This document shows, one piece after another, positions 25,550 to 37,094 of a DNA stretch of 37,389 bases. The position numbers were made by a program, and so were the translations under genes. How positions within the stretch are numbered: the first letter of the stretch is position 1; each line of letters opens with the position of its first letter. Under the pieces are notes generated by a model. That model made no database searches. It worked only from the letters and a program-made list of their open reading frames with translations, and had not been told where the DNA came from. The stretch covers positions 1 through 37,389 of the forward strand of contig JADFMY010000002.1 of assembly GCA_022563685.1 (NCBI GenBank). The letters are read 5' to 3'. This stretch comes from Pseudomonadota bacterium (lineage in GTDB: Bacteria; Pseudomonadota; Gammaproteobacteria; GCA-001735895).

Positions 25550-27967
25550 TTAACTGCGCAATTTCTCATTCGCCGGATCGTAGGCAGCCTCCATTTCTAT
25601 ATGCGCTACGCGTGTGCCTGTGGAGGTATCGATGGTCACTTCCAGGCCCTGCGCTATCAGCTCCGGTTTTAAATAAGCGAAGGCCAGACTTTTGCCGATT
25701 CGATGGCCAAAGGCGCCGCTGGTGGTCAGGCCGATCAGGTCACCCTTGTGGTAAACCGCTTCGTTGCCGTAGCATTCGCAGGGGATATCGTCGTCGAACA
25801 CCAGGTACGCGAGCTGGATGCTAAAGTCTCCGATGGCCCGATCCTTCAGGTTTTCGCAACCGATAAAATCTCGACTGGTATCGATGAAGCGATCCATGCC
25901 CGCCTCGAGTCCGCTGATCTCTTCGGTAAATTCACTGCCGTAGGCCCGGTACATTTTTTCCATGCGCATCGAATTAAACGCATAACCGCCAAAGTTTCGC
26001 AGGCCACAGTCTTCGCCGACGCGGCAAATCGAATCGTAAATCGACAGTAATTGATAAGACGGCATGTGCAACTCGTAACCGAGTTCGCCCGCGTAGGAAA
26101 CCCGTATAACCCGCACCGCGGCACTGTCGATCTTGACTTCTCTGGCGTGCAGCCAGGGAAACGCACCGTTCGACAGATCTTCCTCGGTCATTTGTTGCAG
26201 AATTTCGCGCGCGCGTGGACCGGTCAGCAACATCGAACTGATTTCCTCGGTGACGTTTTTAATTTCGACTTCGAATTCATCGGCGTTTAGTTGCATCCAG
26301 TGCAGGTCTTTGTGCTCGGAACCGATCGCCGAGACCAGGTAAAAATGATCATCGGCGAGGCGCGTAATCGACACTTCGCACATGATGCCGCCGTTTGGCA
26401 GGTGGAACAGGCTTAGACCAATACGGCCATTCTTGCCTGGTATGCGGTTACACGACAGGTGATCGAGAAAGGCAAAGGCATCCTTACCTGTCACTTCGTA
26501 CTTGGCCGAACCGGATAAATCGATGATACCGGCTGCATCGCGCACTGCGCTGCATTCCTCGCCAACTACCTCGTGCGCCTCGCTGTGCGCCCAGGTCAGG
26601 TTCTCGCGACGGACATCGTCGGTGGTGAACCAGAGTGCCTTTTCATAACCCTGGACCACACCGTGAATGCAGCCTTTTTCGAGTAAACGCGCGTATAGAG
26701 GACTGGTGCGCATCGGGCGGCCATGGGGGCGGTTTTCGTTGGGCGCGGCAACCTGGTACATCAATTCGTAGGACTCGATGGCCTTGATAATGCAGTATTT
26801 CTTATCTGGCCAGTCACCAAAGCGACGGCTGTCCAGGGGCGCCATATTGATTTCGGTCTGTCCGTGCACCATCCATTGCGCCATGTATTTACCGATGCCA
26901 CCCTGGGCGATACCGATACTCGCACCGCAAAGGTTCCAGAAGTTACGCAAACCGGCCTGTGGGCCAGCGAGTATATTGTCGTCCGGTGTATGCGTGATCG
27001 GGCCATTGACGACGGTTTTGATCCCGACTTCTTCGAATTTGGGTGTTAGCTCGAAGCAGCGCTGCAGAAAAGGCATCAGGCGGTCGACATCGGGCTCGAA
27101 TAATTCTCGGTCAAAACCCCAGTCCATGCCGTTCAGTGCCCAGGGCTTGGAGCCCCACATTTCATAAGGGCCGACCAGGAAGCCGAACCCTTCCTGCCGA
27201 ATATAAGCCGAGCTGTAAGAGCTGCGACACACGGGCAATTCCCAGCCCAGAGCCTCGATATCCGGGTGGGTTTCGGTCACCAGGTATTGATGTTCGAGGT
27301 TGATTAATGGTACCTGCACGCCAACCATGGCGCCGACTTCCGGGGCGAAGCAACCGGCTGCATTGACCACGTGCTCGGCGATGATGGTGCCCTTGTCGGT
27401 TACCACTTCCCATTCGCCTGAGGGCAGGGCATTGATGCCGGAAACACAGGTGAAGCGATAGACTTCTGCGCCCTTGTCGCGCGCCAGTTTTGATAAGGGC
27501 ATCACCACCGAAGTGGGGTCGACGTGACCATCGTTTGGCGTGCTGACGATGACGCGCGCCTGGTCGAAATTCATGAACGGGTTGCGTTCACGCGCCTCTT
27601 CCTTGCTGATGATATTGAATTCAAAACCGACGCTTTTCGCACGGCTCTCGAGGTTACGGAACCACTCTTCTTCGACTTTGGTATAACCGACGCGAATACT
27701 TCCGGTCTGATGAAAGCTCGACGCCTGGCCGGTTTCCCGCGGCAAAATTTCGTTGTACAGTTTGATCGTGTAATTGTGAATTTGCGCCACGGTCATATTA
27801 CCGATGAAATTGGAACACAACCCCGCTGCGTGCCAGGTGGAGCCGCTGGTGAGTTCGCCTTTCTCCACCAGAGCGATATCGGTCCAGCCTTCCCTGGTCA
27901 GATGATAGAGCAGGTTAACGCCAAGTACCCCACCGCCGATGATCACTACTCTTGCATGACTTTTCAT
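25550..27967 (-). CDS. Dimethylglycine/sarcosine dehydrogenase-like flavoprotein
   Basis: An 805-residue two-part enzyme. Residues 1-390 are a DAO-type FAD domain with VVIIGGGVLGVNLLYHL at the nucleotide-binding start and STWHAAGL, where His46 matches the covalently flavinylated histidine of DMGDH and sarcosine dehydrogenase. A middle domain (about 390-450) joins it to a C-terminal GcvT-like folate domain (about 455-800; RDAAGIIDLSGSAKYEV, SYAGELGYELHMP, FGGYAFNSMRMEK). Enzymes of this build oxidise an N-methyl group and give the formaldehyde equivalent to tetrahydrofolate as 5,10-methylene-THF. The substrate here cannot be told from sequence. It follows the MttB-family gene by 54 bases on the same strand, so the two are likely cotranscribed. 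Confidence 0.92.
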   Translation of the reverse strand: MKSHARVVIIGGGVLGVNLLYHLTREGWTDIALVEKGELTSGSTWHAAGLCSNFIGNMTVAQIHNYTIKLYNEILPRETGQASSFHQTGSIRVGYTKVEEEWFRNLESRAKSVGFEFNIISKEEARERNPFMNFDQARVIVSTPNDGHVDPTSVVMPLSKLARDKGAEVYRFTCVSGINALPSGEWEVVTDKGTIIAEHVVNAAGCFAPEVGAMVGVQVPLINLEHQYLVTETHPDIEALGWELPVCRSSYSSAYIRQEGFGFLVGPYEMWGSKPWALNGMDWGFDRELFEPDVDRLMPFLQRCFELTPKFEEVGIKTVVNGPITHTPDDNILAGPQAGLRNFWNLCGASIGIAQGGIGKYMAQWMVHGQTEINMAPLDSRRFGDWPDKKYCIIKAIESYELMYQVAAPNENRPHGRPMRTSPLYARLLEKGCIHGVVQGYEKALWFTTDDVRRENLTWAHSEAHEVVGEECSAVRDAAGIIDLSGSAKYEVTGKDAFAFLDHLSCNRIPGKNGRIGLSLFHLPNGGIMCEVSITRLADDHFYLVSAIGSEHKDLHWMQLNADEFEVEIKNVTEEISSMLLTGPRAREILQQMTEEDLSNGAFPWLHAREVKIDSAAVRVIRVSYAGELGYELHMPSYQLLSIYDSICRVGEDCGLRNFGGYAFNSMRMEKMYRAYGSEFTEEISGLEAGMDRFIDTSRDFIGCENLKDRAIGDFSIQLAYLVFDDDIPCECYGNEAVYHKGDLIGLTTSGAFGHRIGKSLAFAYLKPELIAQGLEVTIDTSTGTRVAHIEMEAAYDPANEKLRS

Positions 27968-28021: not shown

Positions 28022-29566
28022 TTAACTGCTACGCCCATAGGCTTCGCGTGGTAAAAATATAGGAAATTGTTCGCGTATTTTAAGATCGATTTCATCGCTG
28101 ATATGGGTCGGGTGGTAAGTGCTTAAGATTTCTTTTTTCCTGGCGATCGCCTTTTCCAGTATCACCGGCTTGTTTTGCTCGGCCCATTCGTTAGGGCTTA
28201 AGCGATTGCTAAATTCAGGGTAAATATATTCGGTCTGCATCACTTCGAGTGTTTGTTCGGTTCCGAGATAGTGGCCCTTGTTACCGAGACACACGTCTTT
28301 TAACACTTCGAAACTCAAGGTATATTCGTTGACTTCGATGCCGCGGGTAATGCGCATAGCGGCGCCGAGGATATCGTTATCGAGCAATAGCGACTCGGGA
28401 CAGGCACCGAGCAGGCTGGCGTACATGCCTGCCGATTCGTAGATTATATTGGCCCCGGAGATTGCTGCGCAAGCGGTGGTGTAGGCGCGTTCGGCGCCAC
28501 CCTGAAAATCCGGGAATTTCGAATCGGTCATGCCGCAGGCGGTACCGGTCGGCAGGTTATAAAAGTGGCCCATTTGCGCGCAGGCAGACGACAGGATAGC
28601 CTGCTCGGGCGAACCCCCGCTCATCGCCCCGGTTCGCAGATCCGATACCAGCGGCCAGGTGCCGAGAATCGCCGGTGCACCGGGTTTGATTGCGTTGATA
28701 TACACCAGACCACCCAGGCATTCGGCCCAGGCCTGGGCGACTGCACCCGCCAGGCAGGCGGGCGATGTGGCGCCCGACTGGCCGGCGGACACCAGCAATA
28801 CCGGCATGCCGCCTTCGACAGCGGTTTTCATACAGCCGAGGGCTTCTTCGGTAAATTTCATTGGTGGTACCACGTGGCAGCAGGAAATGCTGACAAATGG
28901 TCGTTCGCGCCATTTATCCTCGCCGCCTGCAATGATATGCAGCATCTTCAGACTATCTTCGAGATGGTGAACTTCGGTCCAGCTTGCGCCCACGTGCTTG
29001 CTGGTGCCGAGCACCGAGTTATAGGTGGTATTGATATCCATCGCATAGTTATCGGTGACATCGCGCAGTACGCAGGTGCGTTGGAACATGTGGATGTGTT
29101 CGCATAGATCCGTGATGCGCGCCATGTCGTACAGATCCTGCGCAGTGGATTCGCGGTATTCGTTATTTTCCGGGTCCGCGATCAAGACCGCCGCGCCAGC
29201 GGTTGAAAAGTGCACCCTTTGACCGCTGAGATCCAGATCGTGTTTCGGATCCTGGCCATGTAAAACCAGGTCGCGACAGCTTTTTTCCATCGCTTCTTCG
29301 ACTACCTGGCGTGGAAATTTAAGGCGCTCATCTTCATAGGTAGCACCGATCGCGGTACAAGTTTCGATGCAATGCGGCGTAGCCTGGGCAAATCCAACTT
29401 GTTCCAGAATTTTGAATATGGTCTCGTTGATGGCTTCGATATCAACATCTTTGAGGGGCCTGTAGTGCCCGCCGGTTTCGCCGGCATGGACCGGTTTCAG
29501 TTCTTCTGCAAGTGCCGCCTTGCGTAAGGCTATTTTGGCCTGTCTGCCGCCGGATCGTCTTCCCAT
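28022..29566 (-). CDS. MttB-family (trimethylamine methyltransferase-like) protein, no pyrrolysine
   Basis: A 514-residue TIM-barrel protein of the trimethylamine methyltransferase MttB superfamily: LEQVGFAQATPHC, PRQVVEEAMEK, HFSTAGAAVLIADPEN, HVGASWTEVHHLEDSLKM, and the late LLGACPESLLLDNDILGAAMRITRGIEVNE. The archaeal enzyme needs pyrrolysine (an in-frame TAG); this frame has none, placing it among the non-Pyl MttB proteins, some of which demethylate glycine betaine or other quaternary amines. Those normally pass the methyl to a corrinoid protein (MttC type), but none is encoded nearby. GAGGTAA precedes ATG 29566. Its partner is the DMGDH-like flavoprotein downstream. The substrate is unproven. 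Confidence 0.9.
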   Translation of the reverse strand: MGRRSGGRQAKIALRKAALAEELKPVHAGETGGHYRPLKDVDIEAINETIFKILEQVGFAQATPHCIETCTAIGATYEDERLKFPRQVVEEAMEKSCRDLVLHGQDPKHDLDLSGQRVHFSTAGAAVLIADPENNEYRESTAQDLYDMARITDLCEHIHMFQRTCVLRDVTDNYAMDINTTYNSVLGTSKHVGASWTEVHHLEDSLKMLHIIAGGEDKWRERPFVSISCCHVVPPMKFTEEALGCMKTAVEGGMPVLLVSAGQSGATSPACLAGAVAQAWAECLGGLVYINAIKPGAPAILGTWPLVSDLRTGAMSGGSPEQAILSSACAQMGHFYNLPTGTACGMTDSKFPDFQGGAERAYTTACAAISGANIIYESAGMYASLLGACPESLLLDNDILGAAMRITRGIEVNEYTLSFEVLKDVCLGNKGHYLGTEQTLEVMQTEYIYPEFSNRLSPNEWAEQNKPVILEKAIARKKEILSTYHPTHISDEIDLKIREQFPIFLPREAYGRSS

Positions 29567-29780: not shown

Positions 29781-30356
29781 ATGGATAATTCCATCGACCA
29801 GTTACGAAAACGTCATCGCGACCTTCGTGCAGGCTTGAGTTCAAGCGCACAGGAGCAGGCCGGGAAGTCATTGTGCGAGCGTCTTACTTCTTTGCCCGAA
29901 TATCAGCAATCCGAACGCATCGCTGCTTATTTTGCGGTCAATGGCGAAATTAGTCTCGAACCGCTGATCGACCATGCATGGTGCCAGGGGAAGTCAATTT
30001 TCCTGCCCAATCTGGACCGGCAATCGTTGCGATTCTCGCCGTATTTTCTTCAGCAAAAAATGCGTATCAATCGCTACCGATTGCCCGAACCGGATGTTTC
30101 CGACGATGAGATGCTAGCACCCGAAGCGCTCGACCTGGTCCTCGCTCCGCTGGTGGTATTTGACGCCGGGCGCAATCGTATAGGCATGGGCGGGGGGTTC
30201 TACGATCGCAGTTTTGCGTTTCGCAAGGATTTGAATCAACCCCGACCTGCATTGATCGGGGTTGCACACGAATTACAAAAGGTCGTCCGGTTAGAACCGC
30301 AAGACTGGGATATTCAGCTCGATATGGTGGTCACCGACCAGGCGATTTATCGGTAG
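29781..30356 (+). CDS. fau: 5-formyltetrahydrofolate cyclo-ligase
   Basis: A 191-residue ATP-dependent enzyme that turns 5-formyl-THF into 5,10-methenyl-THF and so returns a stored C1 unit to the folate pool. It has the family's LRKRHRDLRAGLS start, the AAYFAVNGEISLEPLI segment, and the hallmark DLVLAPLVVFDAGRNRIGMGGGFYDRSF loop near 118-145 that binds ATP phosphate. ATG 29781. In Gammaproteobacteria this gene usually follows zapA and 6S RNA; neither is here. Instead it is divergent from the MttB-family gene and converges on the transaminase gene with a 12-base gap, placing it beside other folate-linked functions. Confidence 0.93.
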   Translation: MDNSIDQLRKRHRDLRAGLSSSAQEQAGKSLCERLTSLPEYQQSERIAAYFAVNGEISLEPLIDHAWCQGKSIFLPNLDRQSLRFSPYFLQQKMRINRYRLPEPDVSDDEMLAPEALDLVLAPLVVFDAGRNRIGMGGGFYDRSFAFRKDLNQPRPALIGVAHELQKVVRLEPQDWDIQLDMVVTDQAIYR

Positions 30357-30368
30357 ATTCTCCCCAGG

Positions 30369-31238
30369 TTAGACAGGCTCCCAGGAGTCGAATTTAGCCG
30401 CCTGATAAATCTTTGCGGCTTTTTCCCAGACGGGCCCAACCTTACCATCACCGACGGGTTTACCATCCAGTTTTACTACGGGTGCGATTTCCTTGCTTGA
30501 ACTGGAAATCCAGACTTCGTCCGCGTCCCAGACTTCATCCATCGTGATCACCCGCTCTTCGACCGGAATAGTCCCCTCATCGCGTAGCGCCTTGAGTGCC
30601 AGCTGACGGGTAATACCGGCCAGGATTTGATCATCGAGCGGTGGTGTTGCTACCACGCCATTCTTGACGATATAGGCATTGCAGGCCCCGCACTCGGTCA
30701 ATTCATTATTGGCGTTATGAAGCAAAATTTCACCGTCGCCTTTTTCGTGCCCCTGCTGGAAATGCATCACATTGCCGAGCAGCGAAATCGATTTGATATT
30801 GCAGCGATCCCAGCGCAGGTCAAGGCCTGTCGAACAGGTATAGGAGTTGGCGGTATTGCGATCCGGCGGCGGCGGTTCGGGTATATCGAAAGTAAAGGCA
30901 AATACGGTCGGTTCGATACCTTCGGGGTAAGCGTGATGGCGTTTGATATCGGCACCGCGGGTAACATGCAGGTAAATGCCAAGATTTCCGTTACCGTTCT
31001 TTTGACAAATTGTTTCGCACAACTCGCGCCATTGATTTTCACTCCACCCGAGCCTGATTTTGATCGCGTTAAGGCCATCGTTCATGCGCGCGATATGCGG
31101 GCCGAAACCGACCATTTTTCCACAGTAAGAGGGGATCACTTCATAGATGCCGTCGCCGAATAAAAAACCACGATCAAGTGGCGAAATTCTAGCCTCTTCA
31201 ATCGGCATATAAGAACCATTTAAAAATGCAATGCTCAT
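30369..31238 (-). CDS. dat: D-amino-acid transaminase
   Basis: A 289-residue fold-type IV PLP transaminase. The PLP lysine is K149 in RWDRCNIKSISLLGNVM. The GIYLHVTRGADIKRHHAYP motif holds the Arg/His cluster that in Bacillus Dat grips the substrate carboxylate and marks D-amino-acid specificity; branched-chain L-transaminases and aminodeoxychorismate lyases differ there. FLFGDGIYEVIP is the usual N-terminal signature. The enzyme exchanges amino groups among D-alanine, D-glutamate, D-aspartate and their keto acids. It is the last gene of the six-gene minus-strand operon, 67 bases after the DUF4392 gene, fitting a role in making or using D-glutamate. Confidence 0.9.
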   Translation of the reverse strand: MSIAFLNGSYMPIEEARISPLDRGFLFGDGIYEVIPSYCGKMVGFGPHIARMNDGLNAIKIRLGWSENQWRELCETICQKNGNGNLGIYLHVTRGADIKRHHAYPEGIEPTVFAFTFDIPEPPPPDRNTANSYTCSTGLDLRWDRCNIKSISLLGNVMHFQQGHEKGDGEILLHNANNELTECGACNAYIVKNGVVATPPLDDQILAGITRQLALKALRDEGTIPVEERVITMDEVWDADEVWISSSSKEIAPVVKLDGKPVGDGKVGPVWEKAAKIYQAAKFDSWEPV

Positions 31239-31305
31239 AGTGCGGTCTCAATAAAAAAAGTTGTCAGGAGGTCAAAAATCGTGATTTCAATCAGTCCTGT
31301 ATCAG

Positions 31306-32157
31306 TTATACGCTAAATCCACAGGCTTCTCGTAACTCGCGCAGAATCGATTCACCCTCGCTCGCCGGTAAACTATCCTCGGTCAATTCATTAATCCGCG
31401 TCACCCCATCGACGCTGCCGAGTTCGGAAATATATTCGAGGATACCGAGTGGGTTAATTTCCTTGAGCAGGTCGCTACCGTGCCAGATTGAGAGAAACGA
31501 AATAATTCCATAAGCACCCCAGTTTGAGACGTCGGTGACGATCAATTCATCGCAGCTGGTCACTGCTGGCACTATATTCAGGTCCTTGAGCGCCTCGCTG
31601 ACTTTACCCATGCCGATTTCATTGCCGCCATCGCCTATCGCGATGGTGGGGCAGTCGCTCAAATTCATAAAGGAATCGAAACAGGCGGTGCTGGGGCTGA
31701 TGTTTTCTCCTCGCATATTGTAGTAACCGCCATCGGCGGCCTGTCCCGGTCGCTCTATCGAGACGATTGCCTGGGGCTGATATTTTTCCATGGCTTCGAT
31801 TGCTTCCTGCTCTCGCTGGTCATGATCGCCGACCCGAATCTCGTGTACCCGATATTGCGCAGCCAATGCCTCGGAAAGGGGTCTGCCACAGACGATGGTT
31901 GGAGTCACGCCCAGGGTTTCGAGCGCATTGTAAAGCGCGATGGTGCCGACCGGGCCATCGGTCTCGAAAGTATCCACTACCGGAAATCCAGTACCGATTA
32001 ATACCTGCCCCCGGCACTCACGCAGGATTTGGGCGGCGCGCAGGCAATATCCTGGTTGTAAATGAGACTGTACGGTCTTCATGCCGCGCAAATTACGCGC
32101 GACCAGAATATCTTCAATTTTCTGGCTCAGAGCCAGTTCCGAGGTTCGGTTATTCAT
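31306..32157 (-). CDS. DUF4392 protein, D-glutamate cyclase C-terminal-domain homologue
   Basis: A 283-residue cytoplasmic protein. The start is ATG 32157, which overlaps the pxpC stop as ATGA; an ATG at 32163 is the alternative. The family motifs are VLIGTGFPV, ETDGPVGTIALYNALETLG, SIERPGQAADGGYYNMRG and AIGDGGNEIGMGKV. This is the DUF4392 domain found at the C-terminus of mammalian mitochondrial D-glutamate cyclase (DGLUCY), which turns D-glutamate into 5-oxo-D-proline. In that protein the N-terminus is a DUF1445 domain, which here is a separate gene at 34510-35298. It could catalyse the cyclisation alone or with the DUF1445 protein. Biochemical proof for bacterial stand-alone versions is not known to me. 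Confidence 0.87.
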   Translation of the reverse strand: MNNRTSELALSQKIEDILVARNLRGMKTVQSHLQPGYCLRAAQILRECRGQVLIGTGFPVVDTFETDGPVGTIALYNALETLGVTPTIVCGRPLSEALAAQYRVHEIRVGDHDQREQEAIEAMEKYQPQAIVSIERPGQAADGGYYNMRGENISPSTACFDSFMNLSDCPTIAIGDGGNEIGMGKVSEALKDLNIVPAVTSCDELIVTDVSNWGAYGIISFLSIWHGSDLLKEINPLGILEYISELGSVDGVTRINELTEDSLPASEGESILRELREACGFSV

Positions 32158-33092
32158 CGACATTTCTCTAGCTGGGTGCGTTCGAATCGTGACTTTTCCA
32201 GCCAGTACAAGTTGTGGGCATGTTCCAGACTGATTGCCTCGAAGTGGACTGTCGAACCCGGACCTAGCTGCGCCAGGCGAGCGGTGTCGATCGGGATCAC
32301 CGAGCCTATCTTGGGGTAGCCTCCGATGGTTTGCCGGTCGTTCATTAAAACGATAGGTTGACCGTCTGCCGGGATTTGAATCGCACCGTGACATATACCC
32401 TCGGAGAGCATCCCTGTTATTGTTGATATGATCGTTTCGCCTTGAAGCCGGAACCCCATGCGATCGCTACGTTCGGTCACCTGGTATTCAGAGTTAAAAA
32501 ATCGCCAGTGCTGGGTCGGGTCGAAAGCCTGCTGCTGATAACCTGGAACAACGCGCAGGATAGCGCTGCTACTGTATTGCGGCCGGTGATGTTCGGCGAG
32601 TAGCCGGTGAGAAGCGATCGATAGTGGCTGACAGGCCAGGTGATCGCCGGGCTGCAATTTATCACCATGGATACCACCGATTTTTTCGCGCACCACGGTC
32701 GAACTACTGCCAAAACTGTGAGGAACGTCGAAACCACCGGCGACTGAAAGGTAAGCGCGAGTGCCCGAAACCGTATATCCCAACTCGAGTTTGTTACCTT
32801 TTTTAATTGAATGCGTTTGCCATTGAGCGATGCAGGAGCCATCGATGGTACAGGGCAGTTCAGCCCCGGTAATCACAAACGCGGTATCGACTTCAGCTTC
32901 CAGAGCCAGCCCACCGAAGCTGATCTCAAGGCAACTGGCATTCTTGTCATTACCCATCAGACGATTGGCCCAGTCGTAGGCCGGCCTGTCCAGTGGGCCG
33001 CCGTGGGTCAGGCCCAGGTTGTGGGCCCCGAAGCGGCCGAGATCCTGAATCAGGCTCAGCATGCCCGGCTGAATGACCTTAAACCCGCTCAC
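32154..33092 (-). CDS. pxpC: 5-oxoprolinase subunit C (KipA-type)
   Basis: A 312-residue protein of the biotin-dependent carboxyltransferase-like/KipA family: FKVIQPGMLSLIQDLGRFGA, GLTHGGPLDRPAYDWANRLMGN, LEISFGGLALEAEVDTAFVITGAE, and RAYLSVAGGFDVP. With PxpA and PxpB it forms the prokaryotic ATP-dependent 5-oxoprolinase that opens 5-oxoproline to glutamate. It starts at GTG 33092, overlapping the pxpB stop by 4 bases (GTGA), and its own stop overlaps the next gene as ATGA. In E. coli the same family member is YbgK. Confidence 0.93.
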   Translation of the reverse strand: MSGFKVIQPGMLSLIQDLGRFGAHNLGLTHGGPLDRPAYDWANRLMGNDKNASCLEISFGGLALEAEVDTAFVITGAELPCTIDGSCIAQWQTHSIKKGNKLELGYTVSGTRAYLSVAGGFDVPHSFGSSSTVVREKIGGIHGDKLQPGDHLACQPLSIASHRLLAEHHRPQYSSSAILRVVPGYQQQAFDPTQHWRFFNSEYQVTERSDRMGFRLQGETIISTITGMLSEGICHGAIQIPADGQPIVLMNDRQTIGGYPKIGSVIPIDTARLAQLGPGSTVHFEAISLEHAHNLYWLEKSRFERTQLEKCR

Positions 33093-33766
33093 AGGGTTCC
33101 ACCCAGAGAAAGGTATTCGTCGCGGTCGATGCCCCTGAATTTAACCCGATCACCTACCTTGACCGGCATGGTGGGTTCTTTGGACGGATCGAACATGCGC
33201 GTTGGGCAAAGGCCGATCAGGTTCCATCCGCCAGGCGATTGCGCCGGGTAGACGGCGGTTTGCCGATCTGCGATTGCGACTGCCCCACGCGGTACCTTTT
33301 GACGGGGGGTTGCGAGTCGTGGCGCTGCGATACGTTCATCGACTTCACCCAGGTAAGCGAAGCCCGGTGCAAAACCGATTGCGTATACTCGATATTCTCC
33401 CTGCTGGTGAATTTCGATGACATCGTCGACGCTGATGTTGCCGCGTGCTGCGACGATCTCAAGGTCGGGACCCGATTCGAGACTGTAGTACACCGGCAGG
33501 GTGACCAGTTCGCCACCGTCCGACTCTTCTGCTTTGAGGTTTTTAAGTGCTTCGCGCAAGCGCCTTCTGGCCTCGAAGTGGTCGCACTCGTCGATATCGT
33601 AAATGACCAGCAACGAAGCATAAGAAGGCACCAGGTCGACGACGATATCCGACATTTGCGATCGAATATTAGCTACCGCGCACTGAATATCGGCCGATAC
33701 TGACGCGCTGGTCTGATCGGCAAAATAGACGATGAAAGCGTCCTGCCCGGCGACCTCGATTCTCAT
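33089..33766 (-). CDS. pxpB: 5-oxoprolinase subunit B (KipI-type)
   Basis: A 225-residue protein of the KipI/PxpB family. ATG 33766 is chosen because it overlaps the pxpA stop as ATGA and gives the usual start MRIEVAGQDAFIVYF; the frame runs on upstream but in a shadow of pxpA. The second half holds the hallmark YAIGFAPGFAYLGEVDERIAAPR-type segment (near 140-160), then VPRGAVAIADRQTAVYP and SPGGWNLIG. It works as the partner of PxpC. Four-base overlaps on both sides show tight translational coupling. Confidence 0.93.
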   Translation of the reverse strand: MRIEVAGQDAFIVYFADQTSASVSADIQCAVANIRSQMSDIVVDLVPSYASLLVIYDIDECDHFEARRRLREALKNLKAEESDGGELVTLPVYYSLESGPDLEIVAARGNISVDDVIEIHQQGEYRVYAIGFAPGFAYLGEVDERIAAPRLATPRQKVPRGAVAIADRQTAVYPAQSPGGWNLIGLCPTRMFDPSKEPTMPVKVGDRVKFRGIDRDEYLSLGGTL

Positions 33767-34494
33767 TGGTGAATGATATTGCGGATCTCGACTATCGCCG
33801 CGACACCCGCTTCGTTGTCGCCGTGAACGCAGAGGGTATCCGGAGCCAGGTTCAGGGTGTGACCGCTGATCGAGGTAACCGTGCCCTGTTGGCAAATTTG
33901 CCGCACCTGGTCGAGCATTTTTTCGCTTGTATGGACTGCGTCAGGTTTAGAGCGCGCGAGCAATTTACCGTCGTCGTCGTAACAACGGTCGGCAAACGCT
34001 TCGAACCAGAGTTCGATACCGAGCTCATCGGCTTCTTCACGGTGCTGATTGGCCTCGGGTGTCGCCTGCAGCATCAGCCGCAATGGGCGGTGATACTCGG
34101 ATAACGCCTGCATGATCGCGGCGCGTACCGGCTGTTTCGCCATCATATCGTTATAGAGTGCGCCGTGTGGCTTGACGTAAGCCAGGTCGATATCCTGGAT
34201 TTTCGCCATGCCATCGATTGCAGAGACCTGGTAATTCACCATTGCTATGATTTCATCGGCAGAGCAGTCCATCGAGCGCCGGCCAAACCCGACCAGGTCG
34301 GGATAGCCCGGGTGAGCGCCGACCATAACACCGTGCTGTTTCGCCAGCGCAAGCGTGTTTTTCATCACCAGTGGGTCGCCACCATGAAAACCACAGGCGA
34401 TATTGGCCTGATCGATGTGCGGCATGGCCTGGGCATCGCTGCCCATTTTCCACGAGCCATAGCTTTCGCCCAGATCACAATTGAGTAGTAACAT
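33763..34494 (-). CDS. pxpA: 5-oxoprolinase subunit A (LamB/YcsF family)
   Basis: A 243-residue LamB/YcsF-family protein: LLNCDLGESYGSWKMG, then ANIACGFHGGDP, GAHPGYPDLVGFGRR, VKPHGALYNDM and HGDNEAGVAA, all in the usual order of this TIM-barrel-like family. In E. coli (YbgL) it is the 5-oxoprolinase subunit that acts with PxpB and PxpC. ATG 34494 follows AAGAAG and is 15 bases after the DUF1445 gene. Confidence 0.94.
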   Translation of the reverse strand: MLLLNCDLGESYGSWKMGSDAQAMPHIDQANIACGFHGGDPLVMKNTLALAKQHGVMVGAHPGYPDLVGFGRRSMDCSADEIIAMVNYQVSAIDGMAKIQDIDLAYVKPHGALYNDMMAKQPVRAAIMQALSEYHRPLRLMLQATPEANQHREEADELGIELWFEAFADRCYDDDGKLLARSKPDAVHTSEKMLDQVRQICQQGTVTSISGHTLNLAPDTLCVHGDNEAGVAAIVEIRNIIHQ

Positions 34495-34509
34495 CGTCTT
34501 CTTTCTCGC

Positions 34510-35298
34510 TTACATCACGGCCAGTTGGCTGTTGGGCATATCGGTCACCAGCATACAGCCTGGAGAATGGGTGATACAAAAGGGTGGTTTGGCCTGTTCC
34601 ACCGCAACCTGTGGGGTGACGCCACAGGCCCAGAATACCGGCACCTCGTTTTCCCTGATCGTCACCGCATCGCCAAATTCGGGATTATTGATATCGGCAA
34701 TTCCAATCAAATCCGGGTCGCCGAAGTGAATCGGTGCGCCGTGTACCGCCGGAAAGCGCGTACATATCTGAATCGCGCGGATCGCATCGGCCGGGACCAT
34801 GGGGCGCATGCTCACCACCATCTTGCTACTGAATCGACCGGCGCTCGCGCAATTGATACTGGTTCGATACATCGGTACATTGACGCCTTCGGATACATTG
34901 CGAATATCCAGGCCATCGGCAAGCAAAGCCTCCTCGAACGAAAACGAACAGCCCAGTACAAAAGAGACCAGGTCATCGCGCCAGTGATTGGTGATATCGG
35001 TGACTTCTTCCTGTAGTTCACCGTTTTCGAAAACCTTGTAACTGGGGATATCGGTGCGAATGTCGAGGTCGTCACCCAGCGCTCGTATATGGTATTCGCC
35101 CGGTGCCGAAGCCATCCCGATCAATGGACAGGGCTTGGGGTTAAACTGGCAAAATTGCAGAAATTCACTCGCCCAGTCGGCCGGCAGAATACACAGATTA
35201 CCCTGCACATAGCCCTTCGAATAACCCGAGGTATTGCCTGTAAAGTCTCCCGCGCGAATTTGATGGCGCAGATCGATGGGTGAGATATCCTGATTCAT
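34510..35298 (-). CDS. DUF1445 (YcsI-like) protein, D-glutamate cyclase N-terminal-domain homologue
   Basis: A 262-residue protein of the DUF1445 family, annotated variously as putative hydro-lyase or D-glutamate cyclase family. Motifs: [46 protein letters not shown], and [12 protein letters not shown] followed by [10 protein letters not shown] near the C-terminus. In Bacillus subtilis the relative YcsI lies in the kip operon beside ycsF, kipI and kipA, which are the pxpABC homologues. In mammals this domain is fused in front of DUF4392 in D-glutamate cyclase. Here it opens the operon and has its own strong promoter. Whether it is catalytic is not visible from sequence, but conserved Cys and His in the C-terminal motifs are candidates. 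Confidence 0.88.
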
Positions 35299-35338: not shown

Positions 35339-35366
35339 ATTATATGGCTAGGGTCGGTTATTACAA
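35339..35366 (-). promoter_or_regulatory. Sigma70 promoter of the D-glutamate/5-oxoproline operon
   Basis: On the minus strand TTGTAA (35366-35361) and a perfect TATAAT (35344-35339) are separated by 16 bases. Transcription would begin near 35332, about 34 bases before the DUF1445 start at 35298. A TTGACA box further upstream (35393-35388) lacks a matching -10. This is the best promoter in the window. Confidence 0.6.
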
Positions 35367-35413
35367 TCCACTCAGAGCCGGCAATAGTGTCAATAACCGC
35401 GACATGGAATAAA

Positions 35414-35456
35414 GGTGACAGTTAACATAATTGAAATAGATAAGTTAACTGTCACC
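35414..35456. repeat. Perfect 13-bp inverted repeat, possible MITE/REP remnant or terminator
   Basis: GGTGACAGTTAAC (35414-35426) and GTTAACTGTCACC (35444-35456) match perfectly around a 17-base AT-rich spacer. It begins 7 bases after the end of the acyl-CoA ligase gene. Read on the minus strand it is followed by TTTATT, so it could end that operon's transcript. The arm sequence recalls palindromes linked to REP-associated transposases, from memory only. Confidence 0.65.
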
Positions 35457-35462
35457 ATAATT

Positions 35463-37094
35463 CTATAATTCCTTCGCCCGATCCCGCAGCAGATTCTTTT
35501 GAATCTTTCCGGTAGCCGTTTTTGGCAGTTCGCCGAACACGACTTTTTTCGGGCGTTTGAAGCGCGCCATGTTTTCGGCACAGAAATCGATCAATTCAGT
35601 CTCGGTTGCTTCTGCGTCTGCCTTGAGTTCGACGAAGGCGCAGGGAACCTCGCCCCATTTTTCGTCGGCCATCGCGACTACCGCGGCGTCGCCGACCGAT
35701 GGGTGTTTGTAGAGCACACTTTCGATTTCGATCGATGAAATATTCTCACCGCCGGAAATGATGATGTCCTTGGCTCGATCCTTGACCTGGATGTAGCCAT
35801 CTTCGTGAACCACCGCCAGGTCGCCGCTGTAAAACCAGTTTTTCTGGAATGCTTTCGCAGTCGCCTCTGGATCTTTCAAATAGCCCTTCATCGTAGTGTT
35901 GCCCCGAATCACGATTTCACCGATGGTTTCCGAGTCCCAGGGAACCGGTTCTCCGGTTTCGGAGCTAATCACGTCTACCGCCTCGGTCATCGCGAAGCGA
36001 ATGCCCTGGCGCGATTTTAACTCGGCCTGCGCCGCGATGCTTTGTTGGGCCCAGCTATCCTGCGGTGCGGCCTGCAATATGTGTCCGTAGGTTTCGGTGA
36101 GGCCATAGACGTGCATTACTTCGAAACCGAACTGGTTCATGCTTTCGAGTACCTTCGCCGGTGGAGGAGCGCCTGCGGTCATCACGTGGATGGTTCGATC
36201 GAAGCGTTTTTGATCTGACTCGGGTGCATTCGCGAGCATATTGAGGATGACTGGCGCGCCGCCAAAATGGGTGATCCGATGCTTTTCGACCAGGTCGAAT
36301 AACAGTTTCGGTGTGAAGGCGCGCATGCACACGATCGTTCCGGCGACCGCGGTCATGGTCCAGGCATGCCCCCAGCCGTTACAGTGGAACATTGGCACGG
36401 TATACAGGTAGCGCGGGTGTTGAGGCAGGGCCCAGGAAATCACCGTGCCCATGGTCATCAGGTAGGAACCCCGGTGGTGATACACCACGCCCTTGGGTTT
36501 TCCGGTGGTACCCGAGGTGTAATTGAGAGAGAGTGCCTGCCATTCGTTTTCGGGTGCACGCCAGGTGAAAGTTTCATCGCCGCGTTCCACCAGGTCTTCG
36601 TAAAACCGGTACTCGATGTCTTCAGGTAAACCGGGTTTATCGGTGGCGTCGGCATCATCGATGATGATGATCTCGGGTTTCAACTCGGTGGTTTCGAGCG
36701 CCTGTCGCAGCACCGGCCAGAGCTGACGATCGACGATGAATAGCTTCGATTCGCCGTGATCGATGATATAGGCGACAGTGGCAGCGTCGAGCCGGGTATT
36801 GATGGTATTCAGTACCGCACCCGCCATCGGGATGGCAAAATGGCATTCGAACATTTCCGGGGTATTGAACGCGAACACCGATACCGTGTCGTTTTTTCCA
36901 AGCCCGCGTGCCGCCAGGCTTGAGGCTATGCGGGTACAGCGAGCGCGGGTTTGTGCCCAGGTGTAGCGACGCTGGTTGTAAATCAGCGATTCGCGTTGCG
37001 GATAAATATCGGCGGTGCGTTGCAGAAACGACAGCGGGGTCAACGCAACGAAGTTGGCATCACCCGGTGGTAGTTGATCGTATTCGACTGTCAT
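35463..37094 (-). CDS. AMP-dependent acyl-CoA ligase (medium-chain / DmdB-like)
   Basis: A 543-residue member of the AMP-binding ligase family that activates a carboxylic acid to its CoA thioester through an acyl-AMP. It has the P-loop YTSGTTGKPKGVVYHH near 190-205, the HVYGLTETYGH core, GDLAVVHEDGYIQVKDRAKDIIISGGENIS as the hinge region, and the C-terminal catalytic lysine in KTATGKIQKNLLR. By overall pattern it resembles the ligases acting on medium-chain fatty acids or 3-methylmercaptopropionate (DmdB). The substrate cannot be set from sequence. ATG 37094 has GGAG 7 bases upstream and lies 13 bases after the 3-hydroxyacyl-CoA dehydrogenase gene, so both belong to one beta-oxidation-type operon. 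Confidence 0.9.
   Translation of the reverse strand: MTVEYDQLPPGDANFVALTPLSFLQRTADIYPQRESLIYNQRRYTWAQTRARCTRIASSLAARGLGKNDTVSVFAFNTPEMFECHFAIPMAGAVLNTINTRLDAATVAYIIDHGESKLFIVDRQLWPVLRQALETTELKPEIIIIDDADATDKPGLPEDIEYRFYEDLVERGDETFTWRAPENEWQALSLNYTSGTTGKPKGVVYHHRGSYLMTMGTVISWALPQHPRYLYTVPMFHCNGWGHAWTMTAVAGTIVCMRAFTPKLLFDLVEKHRITHFGGAPVILNMLANAPESDQKRFDRTIHVMTAGAPPPAKVLESMNQFGFEVMHVYGLTETYGHILQAAPQDSWAQQSIAAQAELKSRQGIRFAMTEAVDVISSETGEPVPWDSETIGEIVIRGNTTMKGYLKDPEATAKAFQKNWFYSGDLAVVHEDGYIQVKDRAKDIIISGGENISSIEIESVLYKHPSVGDAAVVAMADEKWGEVPCAFVELKADAEATETELIDFCAENMARFKRPKKVVFGELPKTATGKIQKNLLRDRAKEL

Follow-up and report, generated by a model that had tools for sequence, protein, structure and literature searches.

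The window analysed here, a 37,389-nt stretch of contig JADFMY010000002.1 from a marine gammaproteobacterium, raises the question of why the three genes of a 5-oxoprolinase, pxpABC, should stand between genes of the families DUF1445 and DUF4392, with a gene for a transaminase of the D-amino-acid type (dat) behind them. The first-pass annotation of this DNA had named DUF1445 and DUF4392 as the two domains of mammalian D-glutamate cyclase, and the passages available from two papers bear this out (PMC5339696, PMC5132392). The fused animal protein is described there as converting D-glutamate into 5-oxo-D-proline, with both 5-oxoproline enantiomers as standards (PMC5339696). We propose, from sequence comparison, that the six genes may form a salvage module in which a coupled D-glutamate cyclase pair would feed 5-oxoprolinase during D-amino-acid salvage, and we put the probability of this reading at about 0.5.

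In the proposed route, the transaminase Dat would, judging from its family and residues, move amino groups between D-amino acids (chiefly D-alanine) and 2-oxoglutarate, making or using D-glutamate. DUF4392, with a six-carboxylate Mn/Mg site, and DUF1445 would then convert D-glutamate into 5-oxoproline, as their fused animal homologue does, and PxpABC would use ATP to open 5-oxoproline to glutamate, a reaction known for the L form. Within the pair, DUF4392 may carry out the metal-dependent cyclization, with DUF1445 as a partner handling 5-oxoproline. Gene neighbourhoods and co-inheritance back the coupling of the two, and sequential or loosely associated enzymes seem likelier than the halves of one obligate enzyme.

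Open reading frames and Pfam matches confirmed the six same-strand genes of the first-pass annotation, all on the minus strand in the order DUF1445-pxpA-pxpB-pxpC-DUF4392-dat, running from 35298 to 30369. The DUF1445 (PF07286) protein (34510-35298; 262 residues; Pfam E 1.2e-66) is homologous to the N-terminal domain of D-glutamate cyclase from animals and also matched the NCBIfam model PRK05463, 'putative hydro-lyase' (414 bits; cut-off 324). The pxpABC genes, reportedly defined by Niehaus in 2017, follow after a gap of 15 nt, with all three subunits in order and above family (domain-model) cut-offs: pxpA (33763-34494; 243 residues; PF03746, E 7.2e-89; 346.7 bits with NCBIfam PRK05406.1-5, cut-off 213), pxpB (33089-33766; 225 residues; PF02682, E 2.7e-69; 168.3 bits with TIGR00370, cut-off 145.55) and pxpC (32154-33092; GTG start; 312 residues; PF02626, E 1.1e-88; 279.8 bits with the domain model TIGR00724, cut-off 230.2). 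With the equivalog model NF045499, PxpC scored 243.7 bits, below the cut-off of 500. The DUF4392 (PF14336) protein (31306-32157; 283 residues; E 8.4e-71), homologous to the animal enzyme's C-terminal domain and to Thermococcus TON_0340, had no match in NCBIfam. A class IV aminotransferase gene of the D-amino-acid transaminase type, dat (30369-31238; 289 residues; PF01063, E 1.2e-43), comes last after 67 nt. Four-nucleotide overlaps were found at the three joints claimed earlier (ATGA for pxpA/pxpB, GTGA for pxpB/pxpC and ATGA for pxpC/DUF4392); two of them depend on the starts chosen for pxpB and DUF4392, which are internal ATGs of longer open reading frames.

Both DUF families scored above their curated Pfam cut-offs and are linked, so that the two domains of D-glutamate cyclase are present; they are two open reading frames separated by pxpABC rather than the single polypeptide of DGLUCY, the mammalian enzyme. 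The window's genome (92% complete, 201 contigs, 6% contamination) holds one match for each DUF family, both within this operon.

We scanned named genomes with the DUF4392 protein, which gave 125 relatives, and used the best 80 of these as loci. These are near relatives by design, and their titles are mostly Gammaproteobacteria or subgroups of them (Oceanospirillaceae, Amphritea, Neptuniibacter, Marinobacterium, Colwellia and others). DUF1445, pxpA, pxpB and pxpC each lay upstream of DUF4392 on the same strand in all 66 loci that had 4.5 kb or more of upstream sequence, the other 14 being excluded for short upstream flanks. The first-pass annotation had staked its proposal on the two DUF genes clustering with pxp genes in other genomes, and such clustering was found. 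The recurrence of the arrangement in 66/66 evaluable relatives, for DUF1445 and pxpABC, excludes chance. Downstream of DUF4392, dat was present in 62 of the 67 loci with at least 6 kb on that side and alanine racemase in 11 of the 67 (one representative was checked by Pfam and NCBIfam). A LysR gene cluster occurred in 43 of the 80 loci, drawn mostly between DUF4392 and dat.

The two DUF genes were also inherited together in a second family of the window's class (f3, that of genome G126; 147 genomes), where DUF4392 was found in 29 genomes and DUF1445 in 31 (30 above the cut-off). Both occurred in 28 genomes, DUF4392 only in one, DUF1445 only in three and neither in 115 (Fisher p 1.3e-25, without correction for kinship). 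One of the three DUF1445-only cases is a remnant below the cut-off. DUF1445 tracked DUF4392 in eight of the nine f3 genera in which DUF4392 varies; in the ninth, genome G778 retains just 31 C-terminal residues of DUF1445 beside pxpABC, DUF4392 was not found in the genome and dat is absent from the stretch. Outside the nine-genus count, g421 goes the other way, with DUF1445 and no DUF4392 in two of four genomes, and g444 holds the DUF4392-only genome, G751, in which the contig breaks off shortly beyond pxpA. Linkage of DUF1445 with DUF4392 was found in both groups, which belong to the window's class. Mere co-occurrence was rejected as a measure of the pxp link in this family, since PF02626 matches occur in 136 of the 147 genomes irrespective of the DUF genes; a few of these matches, situated in long open frames, are possibly of the urea-carboxylase type.

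Gene order was looser in f3 than in the window's kind. Among 28 loci with enough upstream sequence, DUF1445 lay within 6.5 kb upstream of DUF4392 in 24, pxpA in 22 and pxpB and pxpC in 23 each, and dat followed downstream in 16 of 26. DUF1445 stood about 8 kb from DUF4392 in L125 and about 61 kb away in L106 and L109. In four loci (L123, L129, L130 and L132) DUF1445 directly adjoins DUF4392, with pxpABC elsewhere in the genome. Other loci lost part of the oxoprolinase set: L128, from G126, retains pxpB and pxpC and not pxpA, and the Pseudoalteromonas locus L089 retains pxpA, with pxpB and pxpC not in the operon. All six genes are present in L112, where DUF4392 comes first and DUF1445 is adjacent on its other side. 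Genome G710 carries a separate locus, pxpA-pxpB-pxpC-dat-alanine racemase (L159), with DUF1445-DUF4392 elsewhere (L129), the module being split into halves. Five joints were read in relatives, and none showed DUF1445 fused to DUF4392.

These rearrangements bear on the idea that the genes share regulation only, all touching nitrogen or glutamate metabolism with no common pathway. The variation of the module's flanks between groups and the separability of pxp and dat from the DUF pair fit this idea; however, DUF1445 and pxpABC lay upstream of DUF4392 in every evaluable locus of the window's kind and the adjacency of the DUF genes persisted in the four loci without pxpABC, and we regard shared regulation as very improbable.

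Beyond these groups, a sample of 299 Pseudomonadota genomes (all genomes were sampled from this phylum; Bacillota were covered by one Lactiplantibacillus plasmid stretch, hit listings and a B. subtilis control) contained DUF1445 in 43, DUF4392 in seven and both in five (Fisher p 8e-4). The two were closely linked in three of these five, one being the window's own genome. DUF1445 stood without DUF4392 in 38 of the 43, and 17 of the 43 had pxpA no more than 10 kb from DUF1445. We fetched 20 of the 38 DUF1445-only cases as loci; seven carried pxpA and five a gene of the hydantoinase A/B (oxoprolinase) type, never both. The hydantoinase-type protein of L142 is 1240 residues long with Hydantoinase_A and Hydantoinase_B domains by Pfam, and the other four copies were found by tblastn with it; in L135 the match is incomplete and lies where the fetched sequence ends, some 4 kb from DUF1445. 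No curated oxoprolinase model matched this protein; only caprolactamase and carboxylase models did, far below their cut-offs. Four of the five genomes with such a gene had no pxpA match. The fused single chain is an oxoprolinase architecture to which PxpABC is dissimilar, as stated in a passage of PMC8453981. Since 12 of the 20 DUF1445-only loci carry either of two unrelated oxoprolinase types, their neighbours indicate that DUF1445 is tied to 5-oxoproline independently of DUF4392. A DctM gene of the tripartite ATP-independent periplasmic (TRAP) transporters was present in 11 of the 20 loci, eight of which had an oxoprolinase type in the stretch.

In Bacillota, the B. subtilis control genome has a PF07286 match, and we take ycsI to be the DUF1445 gene of this species. 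In the passages available, ycsI shares the operon pxpA-ycsG-ycsI-pxpBC-kipR with pxpABC (PMC10448178, PMC3412718). On the Lactiplantibacillus plasmid (L095:1498-7772), pxpB, a pxpC-like gene, genes for a biotin carrier and a biotin carboxylase, DUF1445, pxpA and an NRAMP metal transporter gene form one run, which resembles the B. subtilis pxp operon with its Mn importer as described in part of PMC10448178. In a tree of 55 DUF1445 proteins, chosen from 125 aligned rows and rooted at the midpoint with modest support, paired proteins fell among unpaired ones with three state changes (shuffled mean 17.8). DUF1445 likely came first, with DUF4392 joining later.

Within the 125 rows, Cys57, Glu122, Arg165 and His186 of DUF1445 were invariant, whereas Cys117 was kept in 122 and Cys225 in 123, the exceptions (L151, L156 and L157) all lacking DUF4392 in the stretch. 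In L156 (6150-6950) and L157 (6481-7278) DUF1445 is flanked by a GH3 gene and pxpA, and DUF4392 is lacking; Cys117 is replaced in both, and Cys225 and His244 in L156, and from their sequences these two proteins possibly have a relaxed or changed function. No position was at least 80% fixed for different letters in paired and unpaired proteins (101 and 24 rows). The AlphaFold model of the window's DUF1445 protein has a predicted local distance difference test score (pLDDT) of 92.0, and solved relatives exist (2pif and 3db9). Its fold gave no clue to function: among the matches listed only DUF1445 structures matched well, the next being the NrpR-like 3nek (E 8.8e-7, but a template modelling score of 0.41 and a root-mean-square deviation of 10.7). 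With a cofactor-independent two-cysteine racemase in mind (Cys57, Cys117 and Cys225), no racemase was found among the 50 matches listed by Foldseek against the PDB.

The idea that the two proteins are an obligate heteromer equal to the animal enzyme, with neither active alone, is favoured by the vertebrate fusion of the same domains, with DUF4392 C-terminal as in the bacterial gene order (passages of PMC5132392), by the tight linkage and concordant presence, by the adjacency retained without pxpABC and by genome G778, in which DUF4392 is missing and DUF1445 has shrunk to a fragment. However, the 38 unpaired DUF1445 genomes speak against it, as do orphan DUF4392 proteins that retain all six metal ligands, the reversed order in L112 and genomes G740 and G768, which have full-length DUF1445 without DUF4392, although with conserved cysteines changed. 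The passages of PMC5132392 further describe archaea with DUF4392 and no DUF1445, and fungi with the reverse. We therefore hold the obligate heteromer to be rather doubtful. The first-pass annotation had made the two domains candidates for one enzyme: that they are linked, co-inherited in f3 and still adjacent without pxpABC stands, whereas the claim of one enzyme is weakened because each occurs alone (38 DUF1445-only and two DUF4392-only among the 299 genomes), no fused bacterial gene was seen and DUF1445 is tied to 5-oxoproline in its own right.

The DUF4392 protein (AlphaFold model pLDDT 91.9) matched the TON_0340 structures with E ~1e-30, and the TON_0340 metal ligands Glu59, Asp61, Glu115, Asp157, Glu161 and Asp246 aligned with Glu65, Asp67, Glu135, Asp176, Glu180 and Asp261 of the window's protein. 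All six carboxylates were kept in 116/116 rows, orphans included (121 were found; incomplete genes and odd lengths were excluded). TON_0340 has been reported as an Mn-dependent phosphatase with a two-metal site (PMC5132392), and DUF4392 might accordingly be a phosphatase or repair enzyme for (D-)gamma-glutamyl phosphate from side reactions of PxpABC, with DUF1445 as the cyclase. Such a role would suit the intermediate assumed for the PxpABC reaction, gamma-glutamyl phosphate (PMC13274462), and the commonness of DUF1445 without DUF4392; however, the activity tests in the passages of PMC5132392 used general phospho-substrates such as AMP, whose relevance is questionable, and DUF4392 also occurs in stretches without pxp. 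We consider the phosphatase role improbable.

For the transaminase, the residues Tyr32, Arg100 and His102 aligned with the D-specific trap Tyr31/Arg98/His100, which binds the substrate carboxylate in the Bacillus D-amino-acid transaminase as described in passages of PMC3907554 and PMC4255305, and were invariant in 90/90 rows; the trap loop is one residue longer than in the Bacillus sp. YM-1 enzyme. The first-pass claim of a transaminase that makes or uses D-glutamate finds support in the trap, although the scores stay below the curated cut-offs: the best NCBIfam model, TIGR01121, gave 236.9 bits, below its cut-off of 277.45, and NF005209 gave 229 bits (cut-off 320).

In f3 the neighbours point to a source of D-glutamate. 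Muropeptide-type genes (NagZ-like GH3, Na+ symporter, BcrAD-type kinase, NamZ and RpiR-type regulator) were found in 10 of 29 fetched loci, three of these having GH3 alone. In L097 the kinase and N-acetylmuramic acid 6-phosphate etherase form a single fused protein (kinase-MurQ; TIGR00274, 420 bits, cut-off 302), and the GH3 protein of L096 scored 202.7 bits, just below the beta-N-acetylhexosaminidase cut-off of 207. GH3 lies directly upstream of DUF1445 in L089, L156 and L157. Of the 29 f3 genomes with DUF4392, 27 had NamZ, and in 12 of these 27 the gene was no more than 20 kb from DUF4392 (8 of 13 genera; 0.28 genomes expected), a limit chosen after the distances were known; NamZ itself was selected on account of its presence in G126, G234 and G682, and leaving these three out gives 9 of 24. 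With queries from f3 and Pseudoalteromonas, tblastn (E <1e-20) found no muropeptide gene in any of the 80 near-relative loci. The DUF1445-only set, with 20 stretches of rather smaller length, gave none either, and none was found in the 15-kb stretch around the window's operon (L103). Since such neighbours are present in f3 and in 0/80 loci of the window's kind, peptidoglycan is the likely source of D-glutamate in f3 only, where D-glutamate and D-alanine would probably both derive from it; for the window's own lineage, a supply from peptidoglycan recycling is unsupported.

Besides the peptidoglycan result for the window's kind and the frequent DUF1445-only genomes, several observations weigh against the salvage reading. 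An even sample of the class, comprising 369 genomes, had DUF4392 in just 3, all of the window's genus, so that the module is patchy. Psychromonas sp. MB-3u-54 has a lone DUF4392 gene (L007:1553-2434), 82% identical to the window's and possibly transferred, among unrelated neighbours; the unrelated gene upstream breaks the pattern, this locus not being counted among the 66 because of its short flank. The dat gene is missing in five of the 67 loci of the window's kind (L005, L007, L025, L026 and L040) and in 10 of 26 f3 loci, and Dat itself falls below its equivalog cut-off. The ubiquity of PF02626 in f3 removes co-occurrence as an argument for the pxp link there, and NamZ lies on another contig in ten and 27 to 178 kb away in five of the remaining 15 genomes. 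Eight of the 20 DUF1445-only loci carried neither oxoprolinase type in the fetched stretch, and two of the seven phylum genomes with DUF4392 (G057 and G108) have neither DUF1445 nor pxpA. The reported phosphatase activity of TON_0340 belongs here too, as do plasmid-borne DUF4392 genes of rhizobia and others (about 27-33% identity), whose neighbours vary: alanine racemase with RidA nearby, or elsewhere threonine/serine dehydratase and RidA; sugar-type or other ATP-binding cassette (ABC) genes; a TRAP transporter with arylmalonate decarboxylase; or sensory genes.

Some further loci are independent, looser instances of the association. In genome G043 (L099) DUF4392 has pxpABC about 8 kb downstream. 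On S. meliloti pRM41A a 'putative hydro-lyase' (the name borne by many DUF1445 matches), DUF4392, PxpA and a 'urea amidolyase family' protein lie within about 17 kb, and in Rhizobium N324 DUF4392 and the hydro-lyase are about 14 kb apart. Among the plasmids with other neighbours, those of Bradyrhizobium and Roseinatronobacter (L168 and L169) carry two close DUF4392 genes by amino-acid (ABC) or tricarboxylate transporter genes.

A further point against the salvage reading is stereochemical. The product of the animal enzyme is 5-oxo-D-proline, whereas PxpABC is described for 5-oxo-L-proline, being required for growth on it (PMC13274462, the main text of which has no occurrence of '5-oxo-D-proline' or 'stereo'). 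A D-to-L step or relaxed specificity is therefore needed, and without inversion the cyclase and the oxoprolinase would form a futile cycle. The gap would close if PxpABC accepts the D form, if the DUF pair runs backwards on 5-oxo-D-proline or if 5-oxoproline is epimerized. The compact route between D-amino acids, D-glutamate, 5-oxoproline and glutamate proposed in the first-pass annotation is well supported by context as a pathway idea, but it hides this gap.

With the pair running backwards, both hands of 5-oxoproline would be consumed: PxpABC would open the L form with ATP, the DUF pair would hydrolyse 5-oxo-D-proline to D-glutamate, and Dat would pull this to 2-oxoglutarate. Such a scheme needs no extra D-to-L step, accounts for Dat and fits the DctM genes in 11 of the 20 DUF1445-only loci, as expected for 5-oxoproline import. 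The peptidoglycan neighbours in f3, however, suggest D-glutamate as the input. The lactam is favoured at neutral pH, which also counts against hydrolysis. Moreover, the animal enzyme was measured in the direction from D-glutamate to 5-oxo-D-proline (PMC5339696, passages available), and we judge the reverse sense unlikely.

The third solution would have DUF1445 as a 5-oxoproline epimerase and DUF4392 as the D-glutamate cyclase, so that D-glutamate from D-amino acids or cell-wall debris would pass via 5-oxo-D-proline and 5-oxo-L-proline to L-glutamate through PxpABC, driven one way by ATP. DUF1445 is the natural candidate because it accompanies both oxoprolinase types without DUF4392. Epimerization would explain the occurrence of DUF1445 with two oxoprolinase types and uptake systems, the later joining of DUF4392 and the conserved cysteines; the reported D product of the animal enzyme argues against it, and we offer it tentatively, as distinctly unlikely. 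If it were true, D-glutamate could be used while bypassing glutamate racemase.

Turning to the borders of the operon, the gene upstream encodes an acyl-CoA synthetase and ends at 35463, directly before a 13-bp perfect inverted repeat, GGTGACAGTTAAC ... GTTAACTGTCACC (35414-35456, minus strand), which lies between its stop and the operon. The surrounding stretch (35405-35465) folds as RNA with -22.9 kcal/mol (z -7.05), and the hairpin at 35456-35414 is consistent with a transcription-unit boundary; it probably terminates the preceding transcription unit or serves as an operator. A promoter-like site, TTGTAA-16-TATAAT (35339-35366, minus strand), lies about 40 nt upstream of the DUF1445 start. 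This 'one good promoter' of the first-pass annotation is well positioned, but the scan gave nine such sites against 6.1 +/- 2.6 in shuffled sequences, a number within chance, and we rejected it as evidence for one transcription unit. On the other side lie a gene for 5-formyltetrahydrofolate cyclo-ligase on the opposite strand (29781-30356), an MTTB-family methyltransferase gene (28022-29566) whose product scores below the cut-off of the pyrrolysine-type model, and a GcvT/flavin adenine dinucleotide (FAD)-type gene adjoining the operon region (25550-27967). Among the 80 relatives, 16 have the MTTB gene following the operon. The GcvT/FAD and MTTB neighbours possibly indicate a one-carbon or methylamine connection.

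If the salvage reading is true, bacteria recover D-glutamate, a cell-wall D-amino acid, via the lactam 5-oxoproline, and DUF1445 and DUF4392 gain a shared, directly testable substrate pair. The answer would bear on the division of labour between the domains of the animal enzyme and on whether the phosphatase activity reported for DUF4392 is its real one, and the carriers include cultured marine genera (Neptuniibacter, Marinobacterium, Amphritea and Oceanospirillum). Already known are the ycsI-pxp link of B. subtilis, the vertebrate DUF1445-DUF4392 fusion and, seemingly, split bacterial homologues: a table of PMC11580864 lists human D-glutamate cyclase with counts of 0 and 6, which, going by the paper's title, are probably full-length and split gut-bacterial homologues. 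In the titles and opening parts of abstracts from the literature searched, we found no description of the six-gene arrangement, the co-occurrence of the DUF genes, the peptidoglycan neighbourhood or the second oxoprolinase type, and no assayed role of DUF1445 and DUF4392 as a bacterial pair.

Compared with known systems, the operon is closest in domain content to DGLUCY (9030617O03Rik/C14orf159), which has the same domains in the order DUF1445 then DUF4392; the window, in contrast, has two genes, usually with pxpABC between them in its relatives, beside a D-amino-acid-type transaminase, and its cyclase activity is predicted. The B. subtilis pxp operon differs in having no DUF4392, and the Mn importer YcsG and KipR instead; PF14336 was found in none of 14 control genomes. 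TON_0340 shares all six metal-binding carboxylates with the window's DUF4392 protein but is described as an Mn-dependent phosphatase, and DUF1445 homologues were not found in archaea according to the passages of PMC5132392. Dat belongs to the same class IV family as the Bacillus sp. YM-1 D-amino-acid transaminase and has the same trap, although with one extra residue in the trap loop and a score below the equivalog cut-off. Finally, the 5-oxoprolinase PxpABC is present with all its subunits in order, but here it is set between two cyclase-type genes and accompanied by dat.

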